Source: Pyxidicoccus trucidator
GTDB taxonomy: Bacteria > Myxococcota > Myxococcia > Myxococcales > Myxococcaceae
DNA length: 64,000 bases
Assembly (NCBI RefSeq): GCF_010894435.1
Contig: NZ_JAAIXZ010000003.1
Location: 124,001-188,000 of the forward strand
Reading direction: 5' to 3'
The notes beneath the pieces are model-generated. The model ran no database searches and had not been told where the DNA came from. It was given only the letters and a program-made list of their open reading frames with translations. This document shows positions 2,864 through 6,279 of this stretch, piece after piece. The translations under genes and the position numbers were made by a program. Numbering within the stretch: position 1 is the first letter of the stretch; every line of letters starts with the position of its first letter.

Positions 2864-3137
2864 CTCCCTGCCCCCATTGCCATTTCGAGCAGCAGGAAGC
2901 AGGGCGCGTGCCGCTGGGTGCAGGGCCGCTGAAAGGTCCAATGTCTGGCGGAATCTCCACCTGTGGCCGCAGTCGCCTGTCACACATCGCGCAGCGCTCA
3001 CGCCCGAAGTGCGAGCCGGCACGCCCCCCGGTCCGCCCCACCCGTTGCCGGACCCTGTAGAAATGGGGAAGGGCGCTGTAACAAGGAAAGTCCCCGTGGC
3101 GGCCCGAGGGTCGGGTTCGCTCCAGACCGAGGCGTGC

Positions 3138-4028
3138 ATGCAAACGCGGCAGAGCCTGTCGCTCCTGTTCATTCCGTACCTGCGTCCCGACTCGCGGGCG
3201 TATGCGGACATGCCCGACCTGGAGGACGTGCTGGCGTCGCTGTACGCCTCGGGCCGACAGGCCTGGCCCACGGTGCCGCTGTCCGAGGAAGGCTTCCTGC
3301 GCCACCTCGCCGAGCGACTGGCACCGGAACGCACGCTCGCGGAGGTCCACGCGGCGGACCTGTACCTGGCCTGTGCGTGTGCGCGAGGCGTGCCGTCCGC
3401 GCACGCCGCGCTGGAGCGTCACGTCCTGCCGAAGACGGCCGCGTCGGTGGCGAGGGTGCGTGGCGCGGGAGTGGAGTCGGCGGAGGTGCTCCAGCGCCTG
3501 CGCGAGCGGCTCCTGGTGTCGGAGGGAGGCCGCCCGCCGCGAGTGGCGGATTACGAGGGAGGCGGGCCGCTCGTGGCGTGGCTGCGAGCCGCGGCGGTGC
3601 GCACGGCCCTCAACCTCCAGCGGGCGGAAGGCCGCAGGGCGAGGCTGGAGGAGGACGCGGAGGCGGGGCCGCTGGCGGAAGTGGCGGGAGCGGATGTCGA
3701 GCTGGGCTACCTGCGCCAGCGCCACCGTGAGGACTTCCAGGCAGCGTTCTCCGAGGCGCTCGCGGCGCTGCCCGCGCGGGAGCGCACGGCACTGCGCCTG
3801 CACGTGGTGGAGGGGCTGAGCCTGGAGCGCATCGGCACCATGTACCGCACGCACAAGTCCACCGTGTCGCGCTGGGTGTCACGGGCTCGGGAGGAGGTGC
3901 TGGCCGGAGCGCGCCAGCGGCTGGCGGAGCGGCTCCGGCTGTCCTCGGGCGAGCTGCACAGCCTGATGCGCGCGGTGGACGGTGAGCTGGACCTGAGCCT
4001 GCCCTCGTTGCTGCGCGAGCCCGGGTAG
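3138..4028 (+). CDS. RNA polymerase sigma factor, ECF-like, with extended N-terminus
   Basis: A 296-residue regulator. The C-terminal part is a clear sigma region 4: ALPARERTALRLHVVEGL, then a helix-turn-helix IGTMYRTHKSTVSRWVSRAR that would read the -35 element. Region 2 is weaker, around residues 130-165 (VAWLRAAAVRTALNLQR). The protein is longer than a typical ECF factor, with about 100 extra N-terminal residues. I chose ATG 3138, preceded by GAGG at good spacing; an in-frame ATG near 3063 has no ribosome site. Downstream come a secreted sensor-like protein and a kinase with an anti-sigma-type zinc finger, so control by sequestration at the membrane is a reasonable inference. The class is confident; the regulon is unknown. 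Confidence 0.8.
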   Translation: MQTRQSLSLLFIPYLRPDSRAYADMPDLEDVLASLYASGRQAWPTVPLSEEGFLRHLAERLAPERTLAEVHAADLYLACACARGVPSAHAALERHVLPKTAASVARVRGAGVESAEVLQRLRERLLVSEGGRPPRVADYEGGGPLVAWLRAAAVRTALNLQRAEGRRARLEEDAEAGPLAEVAGADVELGYLRQRHREDFQAAFSEALAALPARERTALRLHVVEGLSLERIGTMYRTHKSTVSRWVSRAREEVLAGARQRLAERLRLSSGELHSLMRAVDGELDLSLPSLLREPG

Positions 4029-4132
4029 CCGCGGGGCGGGAAACTATTTTCGAGCCCGCGTGCAACACCGCGAGGTGGCCGGTGTCACCCCGATGAAGGC
4101 GGAAGCACATCCCCATCCAGGAGGACACACCC

Positions 4133-4657
4133 ATGCGGTACGGCCTTGGCATCACCCTGTTCGCGCTGGCACTGGCCAGCATGCCCGCGAGGGCGGAGGA
4201 GCGCATCGAGCTGAAGGTGGGCGAGCAGCGACTCCTCACGGTGGGAGCGCTGACCCGCCTCGCGCTCGGGGAGATGGAGTTCGCGGAGGTGCGGACGGTG
4301 GGCACCACGCAGGTGGAGGTGACGGGGTTGGCACCCGGGAGCACGAAGCTGCTCGTGTGGAAGCGCTCGGGAGAGCGGGTGGACTACACGCTGGAGGTGA
4401 CGGGCGAGGCGGCGAAGGCGCCCGGGGTCGTCTCTCCTCCGGAAGAGACGGTGACGCTGAAGAAGGGAGCCACGCGCGACGTGCACGTGAAGGGGCTGAT
4501 GCGTGTCGCGGTGGGAGACCCCAAGGTGGCCGACATCTCCGTGAGCGGGACGGACGTGGTGCGAGTCACCGCGAGCAAGGTCGGGGAGACGACGCTGCTC
4601 GTGTGGAGCGGAGACGGCAAGGAGCGCCGCGCGTATCGCATCACCGTGAAGGAGTGA
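4133..4657 (+). CDS. secreted protein with two pilus-N-type (CpaC/RcpA N-terminal) beta domains
   Basis: A 174-residue exported protein: a signal peptide (MRYGLGITLFALALASMPARA), then two tandem copies of a small beta domain. Copy 1 (about residues 24-98) runs from IELKVGEQRLLTVG to LAPGSTKLLVWKRSGERVDYTLEV. Copy 2 (about 105-174) runs from VTLKKGATRDVHVKG to VGETTLLVWSGDGKERRAYRITV. This pattern resembles the 'pilus formation protein N-terminal' domain that opens CpaC/RcpA secretins, but no secretin domain follows. AGGAGG at 4119-4124 gives a strong ribosome site. It sits between a sigma factor and a kinase whose outer domain has the same pattern, which suggests a periplasmic partner or ligand-sensing subunit. 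Confidence 0.72.
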   Translation: MRYGLGITLFALALASMPARAEERIELKVGEQRLLTVGALTRLALGEMEFAEVRTVGTTQVEVTGLAPGSTKLLVWKRSGERVDYTLEVTGEAAKAPGVVSPPEETVTLKKGATRDVHVKGLMRVAVGDPKVADISVSGTDVVRVTASKVGETTLLVWSGDGKERRAYRITVKE

Positions 4658-4718
4658 TTCACGACGGGGAGGCGTCGGGCCGGCGAGCCTTCCTGAGAAC
4701 CGGGAGGAGCGCGGGCCC

Positions 4719-4845
4719 GGCTCCGCCCCGCGCCTTTCCGCCACCCGCCGAGGCCGCGATGGCGCGATGCACGCCATGAAGCCACGGCTCCGCCCCGCGC
4801 CTTTCCGCCACCTGACGGGACTGCGATGATGCAAGGCACTCCATG
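4719..4845 (+). repeat. 67-bp direct duplication of the kinase gene's leader, including its start codon
   Basis: A 27-bp perfect repeat starts at 4719 and again at 4786 (GGCTCCGCCCCGCGCCTTTC and on). Similarity continues in weaker form to an ATG exactly 57 bp later in each copy: 4776 in copy 1 and 4843, the kinase start, in copy 2. The offset of 67 is not a multiple of three, so copy 1 opens a different frame, a 17-codon reading frame from 4776 to its stop at 4827-4829. It looks like a duplicated translation-initiation region. Confidence 0.75.
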
Positions 4846-6279
4846 ACCCCTCCGCCCCGCCCCGAGCACGGTGCATGCCCGGATGAGAACGTGCTCGCGA
4901 GCTTCGCCACGGGTGCGTTGCCCGCCACCGTTGTGCCCAAGGTGGAAGCCCACCTGGACGGCTGCGCGGACTGCCGGGAGCTGGTGGGCGCGGTGGCGGC
5001 CGAGTCCTCCGTGCCCGATACACGCTGTGCCGACGCACCCACGCGGCTGGACACCGGAGTGCCAACACTCACCGAGGCCGGAACGGAGCCCGTGCTCCCG
5101 GAGGGGACACGCCTGGGCCCCTACGTGCTGCGCGAGCTGCTGGGCGCGGGAGGCATGGGCGTGGTGTACGCGGCCGAGGACCCGAAGCTGGGGCGTCGCG
5201 TGGCGCTCAAGCTGCTGCGTCCGCTGCGAGACGGCGCGGAGGGCGAGGGCCGCGAGCGACTGCTGCGCGAGGCCCAGGCCATGGCGCGCCTGTCCCATCC
5301 CAACGTGCTGCCCGTCTTCGAGCTGGGCACGGCGGACGGGAGGGACTTCCTGGCCATGGAGTGGGTGGAGGGAACGACGCTGGGAGGCTGGCTGCGAGCC
5401 CGCGAGCGCCCCTGGCGCGAGGTGCTGGAGCTGTTCCTCGCGGCGGGAGCGGGGCTGGCCGCGGCGCACCGTGCCGGGCTGGTGCATCGCGACTTCAAGC
5501 CCGCCAACGTGCTCGTCGGCTTGGACGGCCGCCCGCGAGTCACCGACTTCGGGCTCGCGAGGCACGGCATGTCGGACCGCGCCCTCGCGGCAACGCCTGC
5601 CGTCTCCAACGAGCCCGCGCTCACCCGGGCCGGAGCGGTGGCGGGCACGCCCGCGTACATGTCTCCCGAGCAGCGCGCGGGTCGTCCCGTGGACGCACGC
5701 AGCGACCAGTACAGCTTCTGCGTCGCGCTCCACGAGGCCCTCCACGGTGAGCGCCCCTCCGGACCTGAGGGCCGCGCCCGAGGCGCCACCGTCACTTCCT
5801 CTCGGATACCGAAGCACGTCCGAGCCGCACTGGCCCGAGGGCTCGCGGCGGCACCGGAGGACCGGTTCCCCTCGATGGACGGGTTGCTCGCGGCGCTCTC
5901 GCGCCCAAGACGCTCTCCCTTCCCGGCGGTCTCCCTCCGGCTCGCGGTAGCCCTGCTGCTCCTGGGCACCGGACTCGTGGTCTCGCTCTGGCGCCAGGTC
6001 GCACCCGAGCCTCCCGTCACGGCGCCACGGGTGTCCACGGAGGCGCCGGGGAAGGAAGCCCCGGGCAATCAGCTCATCGAGCTGCGAGTGGCGGAGGTGC
6101 GTGAGGTTCGTGTTCCCCAGCTCGAGCGCATTGCCGTGGGAGCCCTGGGCGTCGTGGAGGTCCACGCGGGCTCGGAGGGAATGCGACTGACGGCGCTCGC
6201 TCACGGGACGACGCACCTGGTGGCGTGGTCCCGGAACGGCGAGCGCCGTCTCTACACCGTGTCGGTCACCTCGCTCTGA
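4843..6279 (+). CDS. membrane Ser/Thr protein kinase with N-terminal anti-sigma zinc finger and C-terminal sensor-like beta domain
   Basis: A 478-residue protein. Residues 1-50 form a zinc-finger anti-sigma (zf-HC2 type) head with C12 and the H37-x3-C41-x2-C44 motif. Residues about 92-350 are a Hanks-type kinase: glycine loop LGAGGMGVVY, K123 in VALKLL, H215-R216-D217 in VHRDFKPANVL, D235 in DFGLA and a TPAYMSPEQ P+1 loop, so it should be active. A membrane span lies at about 365-385. The outer C-terminal part (about 408-478) ends in LAHGTTHLVAWSRNGERRLY, closely matching the domain of the upstream secreted protein. With the sigma gene two positions upstream, this looks like a transmembrane sensor-kinase that may also bind the sigma factor. 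Confidence 0.9.
   Translation: MTPPPRPEHGACPDENVLASFATGALPATVVPKVEAHLDGCADCRELVGAVAAESSVPDTRCADAPTRLDTGVPTLTEAGTEPVLPEGTRLGPYVLRELLGAGGMGVVYAAEDPKLGRRVALKLLRPLRDGAEGEGRERLLREAQAMARLSHPNVLPVFELGTADGRDFLAMEWVEGTTLGGWLRARERPWREVLELFLAAGAGLAAAHRAGLVHRDFKPANVLVGLDGRPRVTDFGLARHGMSDRALAATPAVSNEPALTRAGAVAGTPAYMSPEQRAGRPVDARSDQYSFCVALHEALHGERPSGPEGRARGATVTSSRIPKHVRAALARGLAAAPEDRFPSMDGLLAALSRPRRSPFPAVSLRLAVALLLLGTGLVVSLWRQVAPEPPVTAPRVSTEAPGKEAPGNQLIELRVAEVREVRVPQLERIAVGALGVVEVHAGSEGMRLTALAHGTTHLVAWSRNGERRLYTVSVTSL

Follow-up and report, generated by a model that had tools for sequence, protein, structure and literature searches.

A conserved triad of gmx1 sigma factor, secreted PF13629 protein and zinc-finger kinase in myxobacteria: a possible self-limiting envelope sensor

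How might a sigma factor, a secreted protein and a membrane kinase, encoded one after the other within 3.1 kb, act together? Such a triad, with all three genes on one strand in the order sigma factor, secreted protein (SEC), kinase, is present in the window, a stretch of 64,000 nucleotides from Pyxidicoccus trucidator that was analysed as a whole. An earlier note on this DNA had proposed that an outer beta domain, common to the kinase and the secreted protein, tunes the sigma factor by way of the kinase, which would double as the anti-sigma factor. The coordinates and reading frames given there for the triad were correct on re-checking, and the features of the locus (window coordinates) are as follows.

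3053-3086, + strand: upstream element CCCTGTAGAAATGGGGAAGGGCGCTGTAACAAGG, 5′ of the sigma gene; recurs 5′ of several relatives (sequence comparison)
3138-4028, + strand: gmx1-type ECF-like sigma factor, 296 aa (TIGR03001, Sigma70_r4_2, alignment of 12 orthologues)
4061-4086, + strand: predicted ECF promoter TGCAAC-N16-TGTC, with a T-rich tract before it and the SEC gene after it
4133-4657, + strand: SEC, secreted protein, 174 aa (PF13629, 8.3e-26; AF2 pLDDT 83; signal peptide, residues 1-21)
4196-4402, + strand: SEC PF13629 domain D1, SEC-A lineage (tree clade of 13 SEC rows, support 99/98)
4445-4651, + strand: SEC PF13629 domain D2, SEC-B lineage (tree clade of 26 SEC rows, support 96/82)
4843-6279, + strand: membrane Hanks kinase, 478 aa; zinc finger at the N-terminus, PF13629 domain at the C-terminus
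4876-5004, + strand: kinase zinc finger C12, H37xxxC41xxC44 (ligand invariance, zf-HC2, AF2)
5035-5070, + strand: motif APTRLDTGVPTL in the linker that joins zinc finger and kinase core, a candidate autophosphorylation site
5122-5907, + strand: Hanks kinase core (Pkinase, 5.4e-31; invariant columns)
5923-5991, + strand: predicted single transmembrane helix, residues 361-383 (AF2 helix and hydrophobic sequence)
6070-6270, + strand: PF13629 domain at the outer end of the kinase, residues 410-476 (Pfam, 4.2e-7; AF2 block means ~84-90)

Between SEC and the kinase, positions 4718-4851 hold a tandem pair of 67-bp repeats that are 81% identical, the second copy overlapping the kinase start codon. Divergent from the sigma gene, a TPR protein in which units of the SARPAGATMAPVP type recur is encoded at 1547-2929 on the - strand; its gene stays beside the locus in several relatives.

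The sigma gene that the earlier note had placed upstream of the kinase was confirmed at 3138-4028. Its product matches the whole of TIGR03001 (Sig-70_gmx1; positions 1-244 of 244, E 6.7e-89) with 297 bits against a curated cut-off of 154.6 bits and is a full-length gmx1 member; the match to Sigma70_r4_2 has an E-value of 2.2e-10. Beyond region 4 the protein carries a C-terminal extension, ELHSLMRAV..LDLSLPSLL, in which S275 and S287 are invariant in the alignment of 12 orthologues. Region 2.2 retains its acidic residues in an ESAEV/DAAEV-type motif with an invariant E116, and no conserved Ser/Thr was found in this region of the orthologue alignment. Since the acidic residues are kept, the EcfP route, in which charge is added via phosphorylation, would be unneeded, and EcfP-like activation via region 2.2 is disfavoured. 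Membership of ECF43 was rejected as well: a kinase gene is in the neighbourhood, but region 2.2 does not show the ECF43 hallmark, a DAED motif replaced by uncharged residues with a conserved Thr/Ser.

The kinase consists of a zinc finger, a Hanks core, one transmembrane helix flanked N-terminally by basic residues, and a C-terminal PF13629 domain. The core motifs VALK, HRDFKPAN, DFG and SPE are intact, and the finger ligands read from the sequence in the earlier note (C12, H37, C41, C44) are invariant in 21 triad kinases. They conform to the pattern of class I zinc anti-sigma factors, HxxxCxxC with an upstream ligand. The window kinase itself matches zf-HC2 weakly (1.3e-3, below the cut-off); among the 21 triad kinases, window included, PF13629 was counted in 21/21, zf-HC2 in 20/21 and Pkinase in 21/21. 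In the AF2 model of the whole kinase, which is only moderate (pLDDT 64), the finger is predicted as three helices (residues 15-22, 31-40 and 42-54), and the linker after them has a pLDDT <50. Class I anti-sigma domains use a fourth helix on sigma region 2 (PMC7406223). The absence of this helix from the predicted finger counts against an anti-sigma role, in a model whose linker, where the helix would lie, is of low confidence. The linker motif APTRLDTGxPTL (5035-5070) is kept in most triad kinases and was seen in none of the genome's ten paralogous kinases.

Pairing of a gmx1 sigma factor with a zinc-finger kinase extends well beyond the triad. In this genome a zinc-finger kinase gene adjoins all of the above-cutoff gmx1 genes (11/11), and every one of the 11 linked kinases has an HxxxCxxC finger with an upstream ligand. 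A separate collection across Myxococcota gave a zinc-finger kinase at 61/80 gmx1 loci, with a kinase lacking a detected finger at 3 and no kinase at 16; these 16 belong mostly to one clade of sigma factors with acidic tails, and some are cut by contig ends. No zinc-finger kinase was found next door in this clade (L172, L183, L187, L188, L190, L191, L204, L207, L215), whose acidic C-terminal tails are of the kind ELDPSELEEV. When the 11 pairs in this genome are compared with one another, the distances between sigma factors are correlated with those between kinases (r 0.755) and between fingers (r 0.725; p ~5e-5), which indicates that the pairs evolve as units and is not by itself proof of binding. 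Sigma factor plus zinc-finger kinase is thus the general gmx1 arrangement, and the triad is a variant of it with an envelope sensor. The earlier note had called the exact combination unfamiliar; this holds for the envelope part, while the sigma-kinase pair follows the gmx1 rule. Its proposal that the kinase is the anti-sigma factor fits the 11/11 pairing and the co-variation of sigma factor and finger sequences, and sits less well with a predicted finger that has no fourth helix.

The main rival to an anti-sigma role is direct phospho-activation as in ECF43 (EcfP/PknT, EcfK/PknS), with the zinc finger as a docking site only. The adjacent membrane Hanks kinase has its catalytic motifs intact, S275 and S287 offer invariant residues in the sigma C-terminal extension, and PknS phosphorylates EcfK directly at multiple positions, among them the linker that joins region 2 to region 4 (PMC13147305). 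On the other side, region 2.2 is acidic and devoid of conserved Ser/Thr, the ECF43 kinases have no zinc finger in the published descriptions compared, and the constancy of the finger would need some other reason. We consider this explanation rather unlikely, although it is the strongest competitor.

We then turn to the envelope part. PF13629 matches both beta domains of SEC and the third one at the outer end of the kinase, as the earlier note had seen them: SEC with 89.9 bits (8.3e-26) in two stretches, and residues 412-476 of the kinase with 30 bits (E 4.2e-7), against a Pfam cut-off of 23 bits. The kinase tail is identical to D1 at 29/66 positions (shuffle z 19), and shuffle z values were 16 for kinase tail and D2 and 15 for D1 and D2; at the level of sequence, the likeness among the three domains is far above chance as judged by shuffled controls. 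The predicted structures of D1 (22-90), D2 (105-173) and the kinase tail (410-476) have the same seven-strand order, with block-mean pLDDT values of ~83-96 from shallow AF2 input alignments (10 and 12 sequences). SEC and the outer kinase domain therefore share a domain, PF13629, with matching predicted strands, and the dissimilarity that the earlier note had named as refuting its proposal is not seen.

Apart from these three copies, the only PF13629 domain of the entire 12.67-Mb genome is that of a Tad/CpaC-type secretin, which lies on a different contig (C9) with adjoining genes for an FHA protein and a CpaF-type ATPase. The SEC profile matches the solved Tad secretin RcpA (8odn, 3e-11) and secretin 8jvb (1.4e-10), and D1 is identical to the N-domain of the genome's own secretin at 33/65 positions, exceeding the 29/66 of the kinase tail. 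Foldseek and VIA-align returned general Ig-like folds for SEC; RcpA was not among the matches listed, so that the link to secretins rests on the sequence comparisons. The term pilus N-domain, used in the earlier note, is borne out as far as PF13629 goes and is better put as an Ig-like fold homologous to the N-domain of Tad secretins (RcpA, CpaC). Identity of SEC with the Tad pilus component CpaI was rejected, the locus not being a Tad locus.

Two domains in SEC are unusual, nearly all close relatives having one. In a tree of 91 PF13629 domains, D1 and D2 fall into different SEC lineages, and the window SEC thus joins two lineages that are encoded by separate genes elsewhere. SEC domains, kinase tails and secretin N-domains form old, largely separate lineages; like-with-like binding is therefore not implied by descent.

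A relative of the SEC domain was found in 90/96 genomes of the family, many of the matches being secretins. The order sigma factor, SEC, kinase on the same strand was conserved in 26/41 regions of the family, the 41 being the window and 40 regions chosen around SEC-domain matches, so that this count is not a frequency over genomes. A locus from another family of the order (L324) has the same gene order with two PF13629 domains per partner. The conservation of gene order in relatives, which the earlier note had set as a test of its proposal, thus holds. At L038, L069 and L330 the sigma gene is followed by a kinase that bears either additional PF13629 domains or the sole copy, and no separate SEC gene was found at these three loci; such fusions support a pairing of SEC with the kinase. 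Ten loci (L036, L037, L051, L054, L063, L064, L066, L070-L072) have SEC with neither sigma factor nor kinase nearby, which suggests that SEC has some role of its own. At two of them, L036 and L054, the TPR gene and further neighbours known from the window lie alongside.

Several single loci depart from this picture in other ways. L040, L043 and L046 have a tandem pair of zinc-finger kinases after one SEC gene, and a sulfatase-like gene occupies the sigma/kinase position at the SEC-only locus L036 (L036:4024-6084). A record titled Comamonas sp. KCTC 72670 (L145) carries a Myxococcus-type triad, and its title is probably wrong. In a distant member of the Myxococcota (L331:3980-6037), an ordinary ECF sigma factor, a non-kinase HxxxCxxC protein and a secreted protein with PF13629 and Secretin_N are encoded together; the non-kinase protein has the finger and a hydrophobic segment and is likely a classical anti-sigma factor, and the gene set is possibly a kinase-free counterpart of the triad.

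ECF promoters have AAC in the -35 and GTC in the -10 element, and the motif TGCAAC-N16-TGTC between the sigma gene and SEC resembles them. This promoter, which the earlier note had missed, has the exact spacing in 23/26 triads and a 15-bp spacing in one more; it is missing in two divergent triads (L039 and L050). A scan for the exact motif on both strands of the 26 loci (624 kb) gave 23 sites. In 22 triads the site lies upstream of the called SEC start, and in L065 it is present with the start called too far upstream. No exact motif precedes the sigma or the kinase gene in the 26 triad loci, and the window element at 3053-3086 upstream of the sigma gene does not contain it. In the SEC-only loci, where the sigma gene is gone, the motif has decayed (L036 and L037, TGCGAC; L063, TGCAAT) or is absent (the remaining ones). 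From this co-occurrence we infer that the window sigma factor reads the promoter at 4061-4086.

Genome-wide, the strict motif gave 13 sites compared with 33 for the reversed pattern, and among the 13 only the window site matches the triad form in also having a G ahead of TGTC and a C behind the -35 element. A large regulon under the exact motif is thus unsupported; looser sites may exist. A search of 13 genomes gave exact sites at the triads, with no excess, among the matches listed, over a search with a spacing one base longer that served as control only.

These data also bear on a second rival, that SEC is an output and not a regulator: a periplasmic structural protein akin to CpaI or a secretin N-domain, with the kinase tail sensing some other ligand. 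SEC is the first gene after the promoter, survives alone at loci without sigma factor and kinase, and has in D1 a domain closer to the secretin N-domain (33/65) than to the kinase tail (29/66). Kinases with multiple PF13629 domains and no separate SEC argue, by contrast, that an SEC-type domain is part of the sensor, and we judge the output role improbable. That the three genes are neighbours with no common mechanism, brought together by the chance of locus history, would agree with the loci that retain SEC only, and is strongly disfavoured by an order conserved over many species, a specific shared promoter, co-variation and natural fusions.

The reading we prefer is that the kinase is a membrane anti-sigma factor and SEC its same-fold partner, made under the same sigma factor in a negative feedback loop; we give it an even chance of being correct. 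It starts from the gene order, the domain homology, a membrane layout read from sequence and model, the pairing of gmx1 factors with zinc-finger kinases, and a promoter that is lost together with the sigma gene. The cytoplasmic zinc finger of the kinase would hold the gmx1 sigma factor at the inner membrane, and its periplasmic Ig-like PF13629 domain would pair with SEC. There is a precedent for a small free protein packing on a domain of the same fold: in the Tad machine, CpaI does so on CpaC (PMC13170226). The pairing state of SEC (free, bound, or drawn off by another partner) would set kinase activity; competing partners might be peptidoglycan or the Tad secretin, whose N-domain is most like D1. 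The kinase could then phosphorylate either the sigma factor or itself, in the linker that joins finger and core, and the sigma factor would thereby be released or bound again. Once released, the sigma factor would transcribe SEC and the kinase from the 4061-4086 promoter, and new SEC and kinase would restore ligand and inhibitor; the resulting negative feedback would be like that of CpxP on CpxA. The conserved triad, in which the probable target promoter of the sigma factor lies directly before its two partners, suggests a self-limiting envelope sensor.

In CpxP-CpxA and RseB-RseA, a periplasmic accessory protein restrains a membrane regulator, and CpxP is made under the regulator that it restrains. 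The folds of these proteins are unrelated to those of the triad, where restraint would be by analogy. The ECF43 pairs (EcfP-PknT of Vibrio parahaemolyticus, EcfK-PknS of Xanthomonas citri) likewise have a sigma gene beside one for a Hanks kinase that crosses the membrane once and has a periplasmic sensor; the triad differs from them in its acidic region 2.2, the anti-sigma-type finger on the kinase and the secreted same-fold partner (PMC8999054, PMC13147305). With ECF factors and their class I zinc anti-sigma factors (ChrR/RsrA/RsiW) it shares HxxxCxxC on a neighbouring, often membrane-bound protein and a conserved pairing, whereas here the finger is separated from the membrane by a complete kinase domain and, as predicted, misses helix 4 (PMC7406223). 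The N-domain of Tad CpaC/RcpA and CpaI have PF13629 or a closely similar fold, and CpaI too is a free small periplasmic protein beside a same-fold domain of a larger partner; the present locus is not a Tad locus and the partner is a kinase rather than a secretin (PMC13170226). In the literature outside the 2008 kinome paper on myxobacteria and the 2021 re-classification of ECF factors, no description of the triad was found.

The control of kinase-linked ECF sigma factors with an intact core-binding motif has been stated to be open (PMC8999054, section 3.4). For such factors the triad provides a testable answer, kinase and anti-sigma factor in one protein, in a system that has many paralogous pairs in a single genome, a defined reporter promoter and, as natural controls, species that have lost the sigma factor. 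More broadly, we tentatively propose, at somewhat less than an even chance, that the Myxococcota possess a sigma family run by kinases that are zinc anti-sigma factors. In the triad, this control would be set by contact between the kinase and secreted Ig-like domains, which have one fold and originate from the Tad-secretin family, and it would be self-limiting via a dedicated promoter for which the genome holds few other close matches or none.
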